Assembly (NCBI RefSeq): GCF_014303395.1 | Contig: NZ_CP060298.1 | Coordinates: 5,537,001-5,601,000 of the forward strand | DNA length: 64,000 nt | Origin: Nakamurella sp. PAMC28650 | GTDB taxonomy: Bacteria > Actinomycetota > Actinomycetes > Mycobacteriales > Nakamurellaceae | Reading direction: 5' to 3' | Shown: piece by piece, positions 1,357-8,736 of the stretch | How the letters are laid out: each line of letters starts with the position of its first letter | Numbering within the stretch: the first letter of the stretch is position 1 | The notes under the pieces: model-generated | Databases searched by the model: none | What the model saw: only the letters and a program-made list of their open reading frames with translations | Told to the model about the DNA's origin: nothing | Program-made: the position numbers and the translations under genes

Positions 1357-1417
1357 CGCGCGCTCCAGGGGCCAGGACCGGCCAGGCCCCGCCGGCCGCG
1401 GTCGTAGGGTTCATTTC

Positions 1418-3115
1418 ATGGACGAACCGCTCACCGTTCCCCTGGAACTCCGGGTGCTCACCGGACCGAATCTCTACTTCCCGCGGCCGGCCGTGAAGCT
1501 CACTCTCGACGCTCGCGGGGTGATGGAGGCCGACCCCGCCACCGTCGTGGGATGGCAACGGGCGCTGCGTGTGCGGAGCACCTCGGTCGGGATGGCGGAT
1601 TCTCCGGCCCGCTCCGAAGCGGCCGCCGAACTGGCCGCGGCGGTGGTGCGGCGCAGCGGCGGTGCGATCAACACCCGGGTGCCCGCCGTGGCGCGCGGTG
1701 GTGACGACCGGACGGTGGTGGTGGCCTTCCCCTTCCGCCGCCGCGGCGTCGCCGAACACTTCGGGGACGCGGTGGCGGTCGCCTTCGAGCGGATCACCCG
1801 CGAGGGCGCCGACCCGGCGGAGGCCATCGCCGAGGTCGGCTCGGCCATGGTCGGCGTCGAGCCGGGCGAGATCGTCCGGCCGTTGCGTCCCGGCGTACCG
1901 GTCATCGCCGTCACCGGTACGAACGGCAAGACGACCACCACGCGGCTGATCTCCCATCTGATGCAGGCCGACGGACGGGTCCCCGGTTGGTCGTCGACCG
2001 ACGGCATCGTCATCGACGGGGTCGAGGTCGAAACGGGTGACTGGTCCGGTCCCGGGGGCGCGGCGCGCGTGTTGGCGGACCCCTCCGTGACGGTGGCCGT
2101 CACCGAGACGGCCCGCGGCGGAATCCTTCTGCGCGGGGTCGGCACCGCGGCGAACGACGTGTCGGTGGTGACGAACATCAGCGCCGATCATCTCGGACTG
2201 CTCGGCGTGCACACCGTGGAGCAGCTCGCCGAGGTGAAGTCGGTCGTCGCCAGGATCACCAAGCCCAGCGGCTGGACGGTGCTCAACGCGGACGACCCGT
2301 TGGTCCGGCAGATGCGGCTGGTGTCGAGGGCGCGGCCGTGGTTCTACTCCCCGGACCCTGAGAACCCCTATCTGGACGAGGCTCTCGAAGCCGGCGGCAA
2401 GGCGATCACCGTCATCGACGGTGAGATCGTGGTGCTGAGCCGCGGTCTCGACCCGACCAGGGTCCTCCCGGTCGCGCAGGTGCCGCTGACCCTGGCCGGG
2501 ACGTCCCGGGTGAACGTCTCCAACGTGCTGGCCGCCACGGCGGCCGCCCTTGGCGTCGGCGCCTCCCTCGACGCGGTGCGGGCGGGCTTGCGGTCGTTCA
2601 CCTCGGGGGCGCAGCACAACGCCGGGCGGCTCAACGTGTATCTGGTCGACAACCTCGCCGTGGTATTGGATCTCGCGCACAACGAGGCGTCTCTGGAATC
2701 CTTGCTGGAGGTGGCGTCCGCGCTGCGGCTTCCCGGTGGCTCGCTGTCCGTCGTGGTGGGCACGGCTGGTGACCGCACCGACGAGGCCATCCACGCCATG
2801 GGCGAGATGGCTGCCGTCGCCTCCGACCTCGTGGTGATCGCGGGCCGGACCAAGTACCTGCGCGGGCGGGAACCCGGCGAGATGGAGGAGCTCTGGCGTA
2901 CCGGCGCGGCGGAGGCGGGTGTGCTGGCGGTCATCGAGAGGCCCGATGAGCTCGCCTCTCTCGTCTACCTGCTGGATCTGGGACTGGTGGACGGGTCGTC
3001 GATCGCGGTGTGCGCACTGGAACAGCGGGCCGAGATGGCGGCCGAGATCCTGGACCGGGGCGGCAGCCCGGCGACTGCCGACCAGATCGCCACCCGGGTC
3101 GCCGCCTCCGCCTGA
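1418..3115 (+). CDS. CphA-like Mur ligase lacking the ATP-grasp domain
   Basis: 565-aa protein. Residues 1-30 (ELRVLTGPNLYFPRP) match the start of the nearby cyanophycin synthetase (ELRVYRGPNYYSYEP). The block around residues 105-130 also aligns with the end of the CphA N-domain. From about residue 160 it is a Mur ligase: P-loop GTNGKTTTTR, ETARGGILLRG, NISADHLGLLG, VLNADDPLV, LDLAHNEASLES and a C-terminal domain. The whole central ATP-grasp module of CphA is missing, as is the N-domain GHVTEH segment. In CphA the Mur module adds arginine to aspartate side chains (established). This protein could ligate an amino acid to a polymer made by CphA, or make a different product (inference). ATG 1418 is chosen because similarity begins just after it; an upstream in-frame extension lies in repeats. 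Confidence 0.85.
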   Translation: MDEPLTVPLELRVLTGPNLYFPRPAVKLTLDARGVMEADPATVVGWQRALRVRSTSVGMADSPARSEAAAELAAAVVRRSGGAINTRVPAVARGGDDRTVVVAFPFRRRGVAEHFGDAVAVAFERITREGADPAEAIAEVGSAMVGVEPGEIVRPLRPGVPVIAVTGTNGKTTTTRLISHLMQADGRVPGWSSTDGIVIDGVEVETGDWSGPGGAARVLADPSVTVAVTETARGGILLRGVGTAANDVSVVTNISADHLGLLGVHTVEQLAEVKSVVARITKPSGWTVLNADDPLVRQMRLVSRARPWFYSPDPENPYLDEALEAGGKAITVIDGEIVVLSRGLDPTRVLPVAQVPLTLAGTSRVNVSNVLAATAAALGVGASLDAVRAGLRSFTSGAQHNAGRLNVYLVDNLAVVLDLAHNEASLESLLEVASALRLPGGSLSVVVGTAGDRTDEAIHAMGEMAAVASDLVVIAGRTKYLRGREPGEMEELWRTGAAEAGVLAVIERPDELASLVYLLDLGLVDGSSIAVCALEQRAEMAAEILDRGGSPATADQIATRVAASA

Positions 3116-3341: not shown

Positions 3342-4526
3342 ATGCGCTCCGTCGAAGAACACGCCAAGGTCGTCAGCGGTCTCCTGTCCCCCAGCCCGGC
3401 CGTCGTCGTCGACCTCTCGGAAGCGGCGGGCCTGGTCCTCGCGCACGACCTGATCGCGCCCATCGATCTGCCACCGTTCCCCAACTCCGCCATGGACGGG
3501 TACGCGGTCCGCGCCGCGGACCTCACCCGGTTCCCGATCACCCTGCCGGTCTCGCAGGACATCCCGGCCGGCCGCCAGGACACCGGCCCGCTCGCCCCGG
3601 GTACCGCCGCGCGGATCATGACCGGGGCCCCGATGCCGTCCGGCGCCGACACCATCGTCCAGGTCGAGAAGACCGACGGTGGAACCGAAACCGTGCGGAT
3701 CGACGACGCCCCACCGGCGGGTGTGCACGTCCGCACCACCGGTGAGGACGTGCGGAACGGCGCCGTCGTGCTGAAGGCCGGCACCGTCATCGCCGGCCCG
3801 CAGATCGGGGTGGCCGCCGCCCTCGGGTTCGCCTCGCTCCCGGTCCGCAGGCCACTGGAGGTGCTGGTGCTCTCCACCGGTAGCGAACTCGTCACCCCGG
3901 GGCTGCCCCTGGGTCCCGGCCAGATCTACGAGTCCAACTCCTACATGCTGGCCTCGGCCATCACCGCCGCCGGCGCCCACGCGACGATCGCCCACTTCGT
4001 CGCGGACGACGTCGCGGAATTCCGCGCGCGGCTGTCGGCCGCCACGGCAGGAATCGATCTGATCGTCACCTCCGGTGGGGTCTCCGCCGGTGCCTACGAA
4101 GTGGTCAAGGATGCACTGACCGGCCAGGGCGTCGAGTTCGCCAAGGTCGCCATGCAGCCGGGAATGCCCCAGGGCGCAGGGCATTTCGGCTCGATCCCGA
4201 TGGTCACGCTGCCCGGCAACCCGGTCAGTTCCTACGTGTCGTTCGAGGTGTTCCTTCGCCCGGCCATCCGGGCCGCCATGGGCTATCACCAGCTGACCCG
4301 GCCCGCTCTGCGGCTGCCGTTGTCCCGCCCGGTCGAGTCGCCGGCCGGCAAGCGCCAGTTCCGGCGTGGGGTGCTCGACGCGGGAGCCGGGACCGTGGCG
4401 CCGTGGGGCGGCCCCGGCTCCCATCTGCTGTCCTGGCTGGCCGGAGCGGACGCGATGATCGTCATCGAACCCGACGTGACATCGCTCGCCGCGGGTGACC
4501 ACGTCGAGGTCTGGCTCCTCGGCTGA
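3342..4526 (+). CDS. moeA: Molybdopterin molybdotransferase MoeA
   Basis: 394-aa enzyme that inserts molybdate into adenylated molybdopterin to form molybdenum cofactor. Visible family marks: PPFPNSAMDGYAVR near residue 45, the IMTGAPMP segment, GEDVRNGAVVLKAGT, STGSELV, the Mo-binding GGVSAGAYE block, and PGNPVSSYVSFEVF near residue 290. Length is normal for bacterial MoeA. The ATG at 3342 is the first in-frame start matching the family N-terminus. A small DUF6457-type protein follows 44 bp downstream on the same strand. In mycobacteria moeA2 lies next to psd and pssA; here the cyanophycin genes sit between them. Confidence 0.93.
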   Translation: MRSVEEHAKVVSGLLSPSPAVVVDLSEAAGLVLAHDLIAPIDLPPFPNSAMDGYAVRAADLTRFPITLPVSQDIPAGRQDTGPLAPGTAARIMTGAPMPSGADTIVQVEKTDGGTETVRIDDAPPAGVHVRTTGEDVRNGAVVLKAGTVIAGPQIGVAAALGFASLPVRRPLEVLVLSTGSELVTPGLPLGPGQIYESNSYMLASAITAAGAHATIAHFVADDVAEFRARLSAATAGIDLIVTSGGVSAGAYEVVKDALTGQGVEFAKVAMQPGMPQGAGHFGSIPMVTLPGNPVSSYVSFEVFLRPAIRAAMGYHQLTRPALRLPLSRPVESPAGKRQFRRGVLDAGAGTVAPWGGPGSHLLSWLAGADAMIVIEPDVTSLAAGDHVEVWLLG

Positions 4527-4863: not shown

Positions 4864-7671
4864 TCAGTCCCGGGTGAACTCCTCCTCCGCGCCGGCCTGG
4901 GCCACGTTGCCGATGGTCTGCAACTGATCCCAGACCGCGCGGGCCCGGTCGACGCACAGGACGACCAGGTCGCCGGCGTTGGCGCGCTCGATACCCACGG
5001 TGGTGGCATCGATCTCGTCCAGCACCACCTCGATCTCCTTGACCCGCGCACCTTCGGCCTGTGATTGCTGCGCTCCCTCGACGATCAGCGCGGCGGTCTC
5101 GCCGGGCGAGCGTCCGCGGAGCCGCTCGTCCTCGCGGACGATGATGCGGTCGAAGTGCTTCCCGGCCTGGTACCCGAGGTCGACCATGTCCTGATCACGG
5201 CGGTCGCCGGCGGTGGCGACCACGCCGATCCGTTGCGGCCGTTCGATGTTCGACAACCCGCCGCCGGTGGCGTCCTCGAAGAAGCGATCCACGAAGGCGC
5301 CCAGCGCGATCATCGCCGGAGCGTTGTGGCAGTAGTCGACGATCACCTTCACGCCGCGCACCTCGGTCAGATTCATCCGGCCGGGAGCCTGGTAGAAGGA
5401 CGAGGTGAAAGATCGCAGTCCGGCCCGGATGTCGTGCAGGTGTGCCCCCGCACAGTAGGCTGCGGCCGCGGCGGCCATGGCATTCTGGACGTTGAAGATC
5501 GCCTTGCCGCCGAAGGTGACCGGCAGCAGATGCGTGTAGGCCAGGGGCATCCGGCGACGGCCGTGCACCAGCACGATCTGGTCGCCCAGCTCCCCCTTCT
5601 CCAGGATGATCGCCTTGCCGCCGCGGCGGCAGTGATCGGCGATCATCCGATTGTTCGGCCTGATGGAGAACCAGACGATCTCCCCGGAGCAGGCCCTGCG
5701 CATCTGGGCCACCAGTTCGTCGTCGGCGTTCAGCACCGCTGCCCCGTTCTTCGGCACCGCCTCGACGATCACCTGCTTGACCTTGGCGAGCTGCTCGACC
5801 GAGTTGATGCCGCGCAGACCGAGGTGGTCGGGCGCGACGTTCAGTACCACGGCAACGTCATTGCGGGTGTACCCCAGGCCTTCCCGGAGGATGCCACCGC
5901 GTGCCACCTCGAACACCGCGAAGTCCACACGGGGATTCTGCAGCACCATCCTGGCCGAGCGGGGCCCGGAGGCGTCCGAGCGGATCACCAGTCGGTCGTC
6001 GATGACCACGCCGTCGGTGGAGGTCATCCCGACCTTCCGGCCGATGCCCTTGAAGATGTGCGCGATCATCCGGCTCGTGGTGGTCTTGCCGTTGGTGCCG
6101 GTGACCGCGACGATCGGGATCCGTGATGCGGTCCCCGGTGGGAACAGCAGGTCCACCACCGGTTTTGCCACGTACTGGGGCTCGCCGATGGTGGGGTGCG
6201 TGTGCATCCGGAACCCCGGCGCCGCGTTGACCTCGCAGATGGCACCGCCGGTCTCGCGGACCGGTTGGGTGATGTCAGGGCAGAGGAAGTCGATGCCGGC
6301 GATGTCCAGGCCGACGACACGCGCTGCCTCCTCTGCGATGTCGACGTTGTCCGGATGCGCCTCGAAGGTCCGGTCGATCGAGATGCCGCCGGTGGACATG
6401 TTTCCGGTCAGGGCCAGCTTGACCATCTCACCCGGGGGCGGGACGTCGTCCATCTCGAACCCCTGGGCCCGGACGAGTTCCACCGCCGAATCGGTGACTT
6501 CGATGCGGGTCAGCACCTTCTCGTGGCCGACCCCGCGGCGCGGGTCCGAGTTGGTGATCGCCACGAGTTCGGCCACGCTGTTCTTCCCGTCGCCGAGGAC
6601 GTGGGCCGGCATCCGTTCGGCGATGGCGACCATGTTGCCGCCGACCACGAGCACCCGGTAGTCCTTGCCGGTGATGAACGACTCGACCAGGACGTCGCCG
6701 CGCCGGGACTGGTCGTAGGCCTCCTCGAACGCCGCGCGCACCTCCTCCTCGGAGTTCAGGTTGATCGCCACGCCGCGGCCGTGGTTGCCATCGAGCGGCT
6801 TGAGCACCACCGGGTACCCGATCCGTTTCGCCATCCGGACCGCGTCGTCCGCGCGGCCGACCACCTCGGAGGTGGGGACCGGGAGACCGGCAGCGGCCAG
6901 CAGCCGGTTCGTCAGTTCCTTGTCGGAGGCGATGTCCACCGCCAGCGAACCCGTCATCGATGTCATCGTGGCTCGAATCCGTTGCTGCAGCACGCCGTGT
7001 CCGAGCTGGACCAGTGAGCCGGAATTGAGCCGCTGCCAGGGGATGTCGCGGCTGATGGCCTCCTCCAGGATGGCCTGGGTCGATGGCCCGAACGCCACCC
7101 GCTGGCTGGTCCGCAGGAAGGCCTCGTGCGCGGTGGTGAAGTCGAATTCGGTGTCGACGGGCGACCGCCCCTGCACCTCGGAATCCGCGTCGCTGACGCT
7201 GATCAGGTGGTTGACGAGCTTGACGGCCAGCCGGCCGGCCATCGTCGCGACCGTCTCGTCCAGGTACCCGAAGATGACGTTGTAGATCCCCCGCTCGCCG
7301 GTCGAGCGGGTCTTGCCGCGCGTCATCTCCTGACCTGCTGTGCGTTGCAGTTCCAGGGCGACGTGTTCGGTGACGTGACCGGTCCAGGTTCCCTCCACCA
7401 GCCGCTCCACGAAGCCGCCGTCGTGTCCTCGCGAGCACTGGTGGTCGTGCAGGCCGGGCAGCAGCGCCATCAACTGCTCGGTGAACCCCGGCAGCATGTC
7501 GGTCGGCGCGTCCTCGAGAGCTCCGATGTCCACGACCATGTGGATCGACGGCTCGTAGGAGTAGTAGTTGGGGCCCCGGTAGACCCGCAACTCCTTGATC
7601 GTGATCGCACGCTGCTGCTCGTGGGGAGGCTGGTCGGGGGAGGCGGATTCGGGCGATGAGGACGTGGTCAT
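4864..7671 (-). CDS. cphA: Cyanophycin synthetase CphA
   Basis: 935-aa enzyme that polymerises Asp and Arg into cyanophycin (multi-L-arginyl-poly-L-aspartate) without a ribosome. Domain order: N-domain about 20-165 (ELRVYRGPNYYSYEP, GHVTEHVALELQ), ATP-grasp about 215-485 (VLKPLDGNHGRGVAINL, ICEVNAAPGFRMH), Mur ligase from about 495 with P-loop VTGTNGKTTTSR near 520, NVAPDHLGLRG and VDYCHNAPAM. Length is slightly above the usual 870-900 because of a Ser/Pro-rich N-terminal tail. All three modules look intact. It is transcribed after cyanophycinase with a 99-bp gap, suggesting a cphB-cphA unit for nitrogen storage and mobilisation. Confidence 0.95.
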   Translation of the reverse strand: MTTSSSPESASPDQPPHEQQRAITIKELRVYRGPNYYSYEPSIHMVVDIGALEDAPTDMLPGFTEQLMALLPGLHDHQCSRGHDGGFVERLVEGTWTGHVTEHVALELQRTAGQEMTRGKTRSTGERGIYNVIFGYLDETVATMAGRLAVKLVNHLISVSDADSEVQGRSPVDTEFDFTTAHEAFLRTSQRVAFGPSTQAILEEAISRDIPWQRLNSGSLVQLGHGVLQQRIRATMTSMTGSLAVDIASDKELTNRLLAAAGLPVPTSEVVGRADDAVRMAKRIGYPVVLKPLDGNHGRGVAINLNSEEEVRAAFEEAYDQSRRGDVLVESFITGKDYRVLVVGGNMVAIAERMPAHVLGDGKNSVAELVAITNSDPRRGVGHEKVLTRIEVTDSAVELVRAQGFEMDDVPPPGEMVKLALTGNMSTGGISIDRTFEAHPDNVDIAEEAARVVGLDIAGIDFLCPDITQPVRETGGAICEVNAAPGFRMHTHPTIGEPQYVAKPVVDLLFPPGTASRIPIVAVTGTNGKTTTSRMIAHIFKGIGRKVGMTSTDGVVIDDRLVIRSDASGPRSARMVLQNPRVDFAVFEVARGGILREGLGYTRNDVAVVLNVAPDHLGLRGINSVEQLAKVKQVIVEAVPKNGAAVLNADDELVAQMRRACSGEIVWFSIRPNNRMIADHCRRGGKAIILEKGELGDQIVLVHGRRRMPLAYTHLLPVTFGGKAIFNVQNAMAAAAAAYCAGAHLHDIRAGLRSFTSSFYQAPGRMNLTEVRGVKVIVDYCHNAPAMIALGAFVDRFFEDATGGGLSNIERPQRIGVVATAGDRRDQDMVDLGYQAGKHFDRIIVREDERLRGRSPGETAALIVEGAQQSQAEGARVKEIEVVLDEIDATTVGIERANAGDLVVLCVDRARAVWDQLQTIGNVAQAGAEEEFTRD

Positions 7672-7770: not shown

Positions 7771-8736
7771 CTACGTGGAGGCCGGACGCCGGCGCAACTC
7801 TGCCGTGGTGGTGTGCGCCCCCTCTGCCGCGATTCGCCTGGTCCGGGGTCTCGAGTCCTGCGGCACGTCGGCCAGGGTGGCGATCCTCGGAGGTTCCAGC
7901 TCCGGGGTCAGTCCCGGCGCCGACAGCAGCACCCGTTCGTTCAGGTCGAAGACCGCGCCGCGGGGCAGGGTGTGCAGCTTCAGCCCGGACATCATCAGGG
8001 GTTGCGTCCCGGTCGCGGTGTAGGCCGTGGTGACCACGTCGGCCCCGTCGACGATGGTGACCACCCCCCTGCCCTTGACCTTCAGCCGCCCGGCCGCCGA
8101 GACGATGGCCGCGGTGTCCTCGTCGATCCCCACCCCCAGCTGCGCCGGATTCGCCGCGACCAGGGCCAGCAGGCGTCCGAACCTGTTGCGCTGGGTGAAG
8201 TGCTGGTCGACGATGATCCCGGACAGCAGCCCCAGACCCTGCGAGACCTGGCCGACCCGGAACTTCGGGGTCGAGCCGCCACTGCCGAACGAAACCATGT
8301 GCTCCGAGCAGATGCTGGCACCGGCCGACGTCCCCGCGACGACCGCTCCGCGCGCGTGGGCCGTCCGGATGGCCTCGCCCAGTGGCGTGCCGACGATGAC
8401 GGTGGCCAGCTTCGTCTGGTTGCCGCCCGTCATGAAGACGGCCGTCGCACGGTCGACCGCGGCCGCCAGCGCCCCGTCGCCAGCCTGCTCGCGGTTCTCC
8501 GGGCGGATGCCGACGACATCGGAGACACCGAGGCCGGCGAACAGCTGGAGGTAGGCGTGCGTGATCTCGTCGCCCAGCGAGGACGCGGTGGAGATGACCA
8601 CCACCCGCGCCGCGCTCCCGCCGGCCAGCCGGATCACCTCGCGCAGGATCGTCATGCGCCCGATCTTGTCCTCGGCGCCGCCGATGGGCATGACGATGCC
8701 CGGTCCGGGAGACTGATCCGACCGTGCCTGATTCAT
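7771..8736 (-). CDS. cphB: Cyanophycinase (peptidase S51)
   Basis: 321-aa serine hydrolase that cleaves cyanophycin to beta-Asp-Arg dipeptides. Marks: IMPIGGAEDK near the start, VFMTGGNQTKL, the nucleophile elbow GTSAGAS (Ser near residue 140), and VDQHFTQRNRFGRLL, all typical of family S51. ATG 8736 (MNQARSDQ) fits; a longer frame upstream lacks family similarity. The gene is upstream of and co-oriented with cphA, so synthesis and breakdown of the polymer are probably expressed together. The C-terminal 20 residues are Arg-rich and outside the catalytic core. Confidence 0.93.
   Translation of the reverse strand: MNQARSDQSPGPGIVMPIGGAEDKIGRMTILREVIRLAGGSAARVVVISTASSLGDEITHAYLQLFAGLGVSDVVGIRPENREQAGDGALAAAVDRATAVFMTGGNQTKLATVIVGTPLGEAIRTAHARGAVVAGTSAGASICSEHMVSFGSGGSTPKFRVGQVSQGLGLLSGIIVDQHFTQRNRFGRLLALVAANPAQLGVGIDEDTAAIVSAAGRLKVKGRGVVTIVDGADVVTTAYTATGTQPLMMSGLKLHTLPRGAVFDLNERVLLSAPGLTPELEPPRIATLADVPQDSRPRTRRIAAEGAHTTTAELRRRPAST

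Follow-up and report, generated by a model that had tools for sequence, protein, structure and literature searches.

The making of cyanophycin, a bacterial nitrogen-storage polymer, may involve a second enzyme in Actinomycetota. A 64,000-nucleotide stretch of the genome of Nakamurella sp. PAMC28650 (contig NZ_CP060298.1; called the window below) contains, close to the genes for cyanophycin synthetase and cyanophycinase, a gene whose product (P0001, 565 amino acids) joins an N domain of the CphA type to a complete Mur ligase and has no ATP-grasp domain. Relatives of this protein, for which we use the name CphA-linked N-M ligase family, share a lid motif of their own and accompany cphA across the phylum. 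The family is likely to be an active ligase of the cyanophycin pathway and is probably a second enzyme of actinobacterial cyanophycin metabolism. We assign a probability of about two in five to the more specific reading that it is an ATP-dependent amide ligase of the Mur type, acting beside CphA1 on cyanophycin or an immediate precursor, and joining to the polymer something other than Arg.

Gene and domain architecture

The genome of the window is a single contig of 5,629,850 bases. The ligase gene, delimited from the open reading frame, Pfam and NCBIfam matches and an alignment within the genus, occupies 1418..3115 on the + strand, with an ATG at 1418 and a stop codon that ends at 3115. This start codon is supported by TAGGGT, a −10-like hexamer 7 bases before it (1405..1410, +); 10 of the 12 genus members have a TANNNT hexamer 6–8 bases ahead of their ATG, the start regions having been read by eye. 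A hexamer so close to the ATG suggests that the gene may give a leaderless transcript.

Beyond the ligase gene lie a moeA/glp gene (3348-4526, +), the convergent gene for a full cyanophycin synthetase, CphA1, with the motifs HVTEH and REDERLRGR (4864..7671, −; TIGR02068, 1158.8 bits), and cphB, encoding cyanophycinase (7771..8736, −; TIGR02069, 230.5 bits), the start of which at 8736 is estimated from the reading frame. These scores bear out an earlier interpretation of the locus (the sequence-only reading), which had placed the ligase near intact cphA and cphB. The genome also encodes an Asparaginase_2 protein (PF01112), which we take to be the family to which the isoaspartyl dipeptidase IaaA belongs. 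Divergent from the ligase gene, a gene that by eye is protein-kinase-like occupies 1-1224 (−) and runs past the window edge; its frame is open, and it is 68% identical over 397 amino acids to a neighbour in another locus (L158).

The only Pfam matches of P0001 at E ≤ 1 are Mur_ligase_M (residues 165-377) and Mur_ligase_C (403-513). Three parts can be distinguished: the N domain (residues 1-158; 1418..1891, +), CphA-like by profile match and fold and, by motif count, without HxxEH; the Mur core (about residues 159-399; 1892..2614, +; PF08245), with P-loop K171, Mg ligand E230, D257/H258 and K274; and the Mur lid (about residues 400-565; 2615..3112, +; PF02875), with R404, H421 and the family lid motif. 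No ATP-grasp domain was matched by Pfam at the same threshold and no remnant of one was seen in P0001, the P-loop (167-173) following directly on the N domain and leaving no room between them.

The best NCBIfam match is TIGR02068, cyanophycin synthetase, at 360.5 bits (cut-off 850) and over residues 160-499 only; the models for MurE (TIGR01085, 99.9 bits against a cut-off of 257.3) and FolC (TIGR01499, 44.7 bits against 162.65) score lower. In BLASTP, P0001 and the CphA of the window share 41% identity in the Mur part (383 columns), with a short N-terminal match as well (35 columns, E 8e-4). An ordinary MurE or FolC with no N-domain match to CphA, the outcome that the sequence-only reading had named as fatal to itself, is ruled out by TIGR02068 being the best match, by the sub-cut-off scores of the other models and by the CphA-type N domain, which matches that of CphA in profile (see below). 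A broken CphA is likewise ruled out, by 12 genus members that align with P0001 over the full length at 65-87% identity.

The Mur domain and its lid

Ten positions that serve in ATP binding, Mg binding and catalysis in CphA1 (N497, K499, T500, T522, E558, D585, H586, K602, R731 and H748; SuCphA1 numbering, as for all positions from 497 to 807 below) are identical in 55 of 55 relatives. Together with the two Mur domains found, this substantiates the description of P0001 as a complete Mur ligase. We take K602 to be the usual Mur lysine; the roles of the others are from PMC9427784 and PMC9262961. The same structure papers name F692, A755 and the tetramer contact W672, which vary among the relatives and for the most part are not kept in actinobacterial CphA either; the set of 51 actinobacterial CphA consists of the 61 CphA rows minus 10 divergent or plasmid rows.

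The lid differs in a consistent manner. In P0001 the motif is KYLRGR (residues 479-484; 2852..2869, +); its equivalent is [RK]ED..LRGR in CphA, the relatives being one residue longer there in the alignment, and DNPR in MurE. The E800-D801 pair is found in 51 of 61 CphA and in none of the 55 relatives. Position 803, directly before L-R-G-R, is Tyr in all of the relatives (CphA, 0/61), position 802 is K, R or H in 49 of them, and 42 have exactly YLRGR. Further positions also separate the two groups, though not all of them cleanly: 542 is Gly in 55/55 relatives and Ser in 61/61 CphA, 728 is Asn in 54/55 and 3/61, and 580 is Thr in 55/55 and also in 11/61. Position 607 is E in 59/61 CphA and R or K in 49/55 relatives; E607 is described as a polymer contact in SuCphA1 (PMC9262961), and its replacement may merely follow from the loss of catalytic residues at the polymer site of the N domain.

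The DNPR motif of MurE holds the incoming amino acid, and a profile alignment places the lid stretch of the relatives on this motif in the MurE of the same genome. Our proposal of an amine other than Arg rests on the altered lid motif, the part of a Mur ligase that contacts the incoming amino acid; a change of amine substrate is what we infer from the lid differences. Decoration of the side chains with another amino acid, which the sequence-only reading had suggested, is plausible on this basis, the lid giving it indirect support. The alternative most closely tied to the same residues is that the family is a helper, which would attach Arg to Asp side chains missed by CphA1, and so increase yield or completeness with unchanged chemistry. 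The Mur domain is indeed nearest to that of CphA, R805 and R807 are kept (55/55 and 54/55), and isolated acidic residues are still common in the lid (E or D at 800 in 19/55 relatives, at 801 in 27/55). The lid is thus not simply de-acidified, and charge alone would leave Arg possible as the amine. Nevertheless, a uniformly absent E-D pair, an invariant Tyr803 and the replacement of S542 by Gly in every relative do not favour Arg, and a motif of its own, kept phylum-wide, would be odd in a redundant enzyme. We therefore regard the helper as rather unlikely and retain a non-Arg amine as the preferred reading.

Distribution and gene arrangement

The sequence-only reading had suggested a two-enzyme polymer system, an idea that would have suffered if cphA linkage were missing in related genomes. 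The architecture recurs widely in the Actinomycetota sampled: cphA is present in 65 of the 65 genomes that carry the ligase family, counted without redundancy, and the genes adjoin across the phylum, which supports such a system. In 62 of these cphA was shown by search, and in the other three it adjoins the ligase gene and is cut at a contig end; in a further three of the 65 the ligase family itself is known from partial matches only. The underlying samples, of order (249 genomes), class (394) and phylum (396), overlap and are not to be summed, five genomes (G000, G171, G294, G325 and G368) and many non-matching ones recurring between them. In the order sample the ligase family occurs in 17 genomes, a CphA-type match in 19 and both in 16; in the class sample 30 genomes have the family, all with CphA, and seven have CphA alone; in the phylum sample the counts are 23 with the family, CphA accompanying it in 21, and one with CphA alone. 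At the genus level both genes are found in 12 of 17 genomes and neither in 5. A contig scan gave one locus, from Nakamurella endophytica (L004). For other phyla the evidence on occurrence comes from plasmid records.

Ten genomes have a CphA-type match and no ligase family. In six of them (G073, G142, G171, G379, G519 and G587) CphA has another lid, VVVYED.D or CHRDDD, and a seventh, a draft (G739), contains only a CphA fragment. Divergent CphA with the lid VVVYED.D[LK]RGR was noted at five loci of genomes without the ligase (L174, L177, L182, L183 and L184). The remaining three (G257, G280 and G297) are of one genus and each encode two full CphAs, one with RED in the lid and the other with VPS or IPS instead. 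The second full-length CphA of these genomes (L176, L179 and L180) belongs to the sole genus seen with canonical CphA and without the ligase. A second CphA that has lost E-D, in one genus, would fit a need for two types of lid, which is only suggestive.

At all 47 actinobacterial loci with both genes the two are convergent, the window being a further case, and the spacing between them ranges from just overlapping ends up to 9.4 kb. As convergent genes are not co-transcribed, no common operon backs the link between ligase and cphA in Actinomycetota. Three genus members retain both genes at a distance of about 19-25 kb. The arrangement is different in Pseudomonadota, where all four plasmid loci have cphB, cphA and the ligase relative, annotated just as 'Mur ligase family protein', in one operon-like row on the same strand; one of the records is UNVERIFIED_ORG and 93.7% like Shinella, so that the four loci amount to two lineages. 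Clustering of the neighbours at 61 loci gave CphA at 56, the ligase family at 49 and a third cluster at 40, which from its likeness to the cphB of the window is presumably cphB; all other neighbours are common to six families at most. This clustering used a simple GC3 gene caller and loci of unequal length, and its clusters were read by eye.

The want of a shared operon, and the distances in the three genus members, are what could be said for a ligase whose substrate is a small molecule of some pathway other than that of cyanophycin, and whose link to cphA has a different cause. Such a role appears unlikely in view of the complete co-occurrence, the operon-like order with cphB and cphA on four plasmids of another phylum, and the joint absence of both genes from 5 of 17 genus members. 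A function on cyanophycin, in company with CphA1, accordingly remains the reading that we prefer.

The N domain

The N-domain profile PF18921 had no match to P0001 in the Pfam scan. A more sensitive comparison, by hhalign, of the N-domain profile of 55 relatives with that of 57 CphA gave a probability of 92.9 (P 3.6e-7, 121 columns), as against 0.1 for a reversed profile and 0.0-0.5 for 20 column-shuffled controls; the CphA set is 57 of 62 CphA reading frames, five whose N start could not be placed being omitted. When modelled by itself, from two sequences, the domain reached pLDDT 83 and pTM 0.83. The first ten rows of a Foldseek search with it were CphA1 or CphA2, at weak E-values (0.048 to 0.26), and a structural re-comparison placed CphA1 and CphA2 in the top 11 rows (Z 7.8 to 5.7), with biotin ligases next (Z 5.4). 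A Z of 7.8 is grey on its own; together with the profile test, the case for a CphA-type N domain is convincing, and the N-domain landmarks that the sequence-only reading recognized are real.

In CphA1 the N domain is reported to contain a Cx19HxxEH site, present in 83% of CphA1, which cuts the polymer into primers and makes the enzyme primer independent (PMC9262961). HxxEH is found in 56 of the 57 CphA N domains, and the full Cx19HxxEH in 52 of them, but in 0 of the 55 relatives. The GHVTEH part had been described as lost from P0001. This is correct for the HxxEH residues and incorrect if a deletion is meant, since the helix is present and the domain is of full length. The four Pseudomonadota members have little of the N domain in common with the rest and do not have its conserved Arg residues.

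These counts bear on the possibility that the family is a starter enzyme, making a β-Asp dipeptide or a short primer which CphA1 elongates. Stand-alone Mur ligases act on small substrates, and the constant presence beside cphA would suit such a role. Primers, though, should not be limiting where CphA itself has the cutting site (PMC9262961), and we consider a starter improbable. Processing of primers, the other task that the sequence-only reading had allowed for, is disfavoured in the same way, as the ligase is without the site that makes primers and its CphA partner retains it.

Whole-protein model

The model of the whole of P0001 (pLDDT 77, pTM 0.69) was made from an alignment that included two CphA Mur rows and no CphA N-domain row. 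Its best match is CphA1 (7wae_A; Z 36.1, rmsd 3.4, 432 residues of the N and M domains), with MurE as the next family (Z 25.7). Beyond CphA and the Mur ligases no third family was conspicuous in the fold searches, a result that leaves room for one. Seven members (L130, L132, L133, L134, L135, L136 and L137, of families f48 and f54), which form one group in the tree, have a C-terminal extension, with 459-571 residues after the P-loop compared with about 400 elsewhere; a TPR_5 repeat is present in the extension of the two that were scanned, L130 and L136. TPR domains often bind proteins. A non-catalytic regulator or scaffold that binds CphA1 or the granule, to which this extension might point, is very improbable for a family in which the ten catalytic positions are invariant.

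Evolution

In a quick tree of 116 Mur domains with MurE, the 61 CphA fall on one side of a branch (support 99), and in a more careful tree without MurE, of 60 hand-chosen rows of the 116, 33 CphA are split from 27 relatives (100/99). With the MurE outgroup, on a branch of 9.45, the 55 family rows appear as three branches near the root and not as one clade. In the sense of an unrooted split, the Mur domain of the family lies apart from that of every CphA sampled. The sequence-only reading had regarded P0001 as derived from CphA by loss of the ATP-grasp. The absence of that domain is borne out by Pfam; derivation and loss do not follow from the 100/99 split, which is unrooted, and an N-M ancestor with a descendant, CphA, that gained the ATP-grasp would be just as compatible with it. 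Pairwise distances of ligase and CphA over 50 genomes are correlated (Spearman 0.72, Pearson 0.87), as joint inheritance would give.

Two CphA variants on Deinococcus plasmids have an ATP-grasp that is absent or weak (L113:5032-7206 and L114:4699-7215): the first shows an N and a Mur domain but gave no ATP-grasp match, and the second gave weak ATP-grasp matches only. They apparently represent separate, later losses of the ATP-grasp from CphA, and thus the same architecture reached independently.

Proposed function and its implications

A working scheme for the preferred reading, that of a partner ligase with an amine other than Arg, is as follows. CphA1 would build the Asp-Arg chain. The N domain of the partner would pack on its Mur domain and help to hold the chain, which it could not cut; the Mur domain would use ATP to activate a carboxylate, most likely that on the side chain of an Asp residue in the polymer, and this would be joined to the amine. 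The polymer would thereby gain side chains of another type, or a capped end. A fixed complex of the two enzymes is not suggested by the differing expression of two cphA copies described for Tetrasphaera (PMC10687191). A further step, which we put forward as doubtful, is that Actinomycetota and some Pseudomonadota may make a distinct two-enzyme polymer, with a non-Arg group at some Asp side chains or at the chain end, and that this has so far been taken for cyanophycin, and its second gene for a duplicate cphA.

An intact partner with a changed lid implies that the polymer of Actinomycetota may have a composition, ends or control of its own. This is perhaps relevant to phosphate accumulators in wastewater, in which transcripts of a shorter cphA copy are reported (PMC10687191). 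The family could also be a natural source of a side-chain ligase that works on its own, for use in making modified polymers, and the scheme makes a clear prediction for in vitro work. It is also a caution that such genes go under the bare annotation 'Mur ligase family protein'.

Comparison with known systems

Neighbouring cphA copies outside Tetrasphaera have reportedly been noted by Fueser and Steinbuechel in 2007 (cited in PMC10687191). PMC9427784 attributes the synthesis of cyanophycin to a single enzyme, CphA1. Published work covers cphA, cyanophycinase and isoaspartyl dipeptidases (PMC10206079) and other amino acids in cyanophycin (PMC8050183), and cphA with cphB is given for 48 of 69 Tetrasphaera-related genomes (PMC9123174). 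Among the open-access papers that came up in literature searches, judged by title and abstract opening, none was recognized as describing a cphA-linked N-M ligase. The nearest report concerns Tetrasphaera, also of the Actinomycetota, in which metagenome-assembled genomes have two cphA copies in series; the shorter, less expressed but transcribed, adjoins the longer one and cphB (PMC10687191). Compared by description alone, the shorter copy may be a member of the ligase family. A short cphA-like neighbour has therefore been noticed already, and the distinct conserved family is apparently unnamed.

MurE and other Mur ligases resemble P0001 in the fold of the Mur core and lid (Z about 25); P0001 differs from them in its N domain, which is of the CphA type, and in falling far short of the MurE cut-off (99.9 bits versus 257.3). 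CphA2 (PDB 7ta5, 8fxh) is likewise a relative of CphA with one working activity and not two (PMC9262961), and its N domain is among the structural matches of that of P0001. However, CphA2 is reported to join β-Asp-Arg dipeptides by means of its ATP-grasp (PMC9262961), whereas P0001 has the Mur half only; it is the CphA of the window that matched the ATP-grasp half of CphA2 (7ta5, residues 144-561). The Deinococcus proteins, in spite of their architecture, fall among the CphA rows in the tree, and the lid of L113, EGPDGRGR, has no Tyr. The traits proposed for the CphA-linked N-M ligase family, by contrast, are found together: its own side of the tree, Tyr803, Gly542 and a gene beside cphA. CphA1 (TIGR02068; PDB 7lg5, 7wae) is the best match of P0001 in both sequence and structure, and the two are alike in the fold of the N domain, in the Mur domain and in the ten catalytic positions; what distinguishes the ligase family from CphA1 is that it has neither ATP-grasp nor HxxEH, a changed lid, Gly542 and a place of its own across the 100/99 branch.
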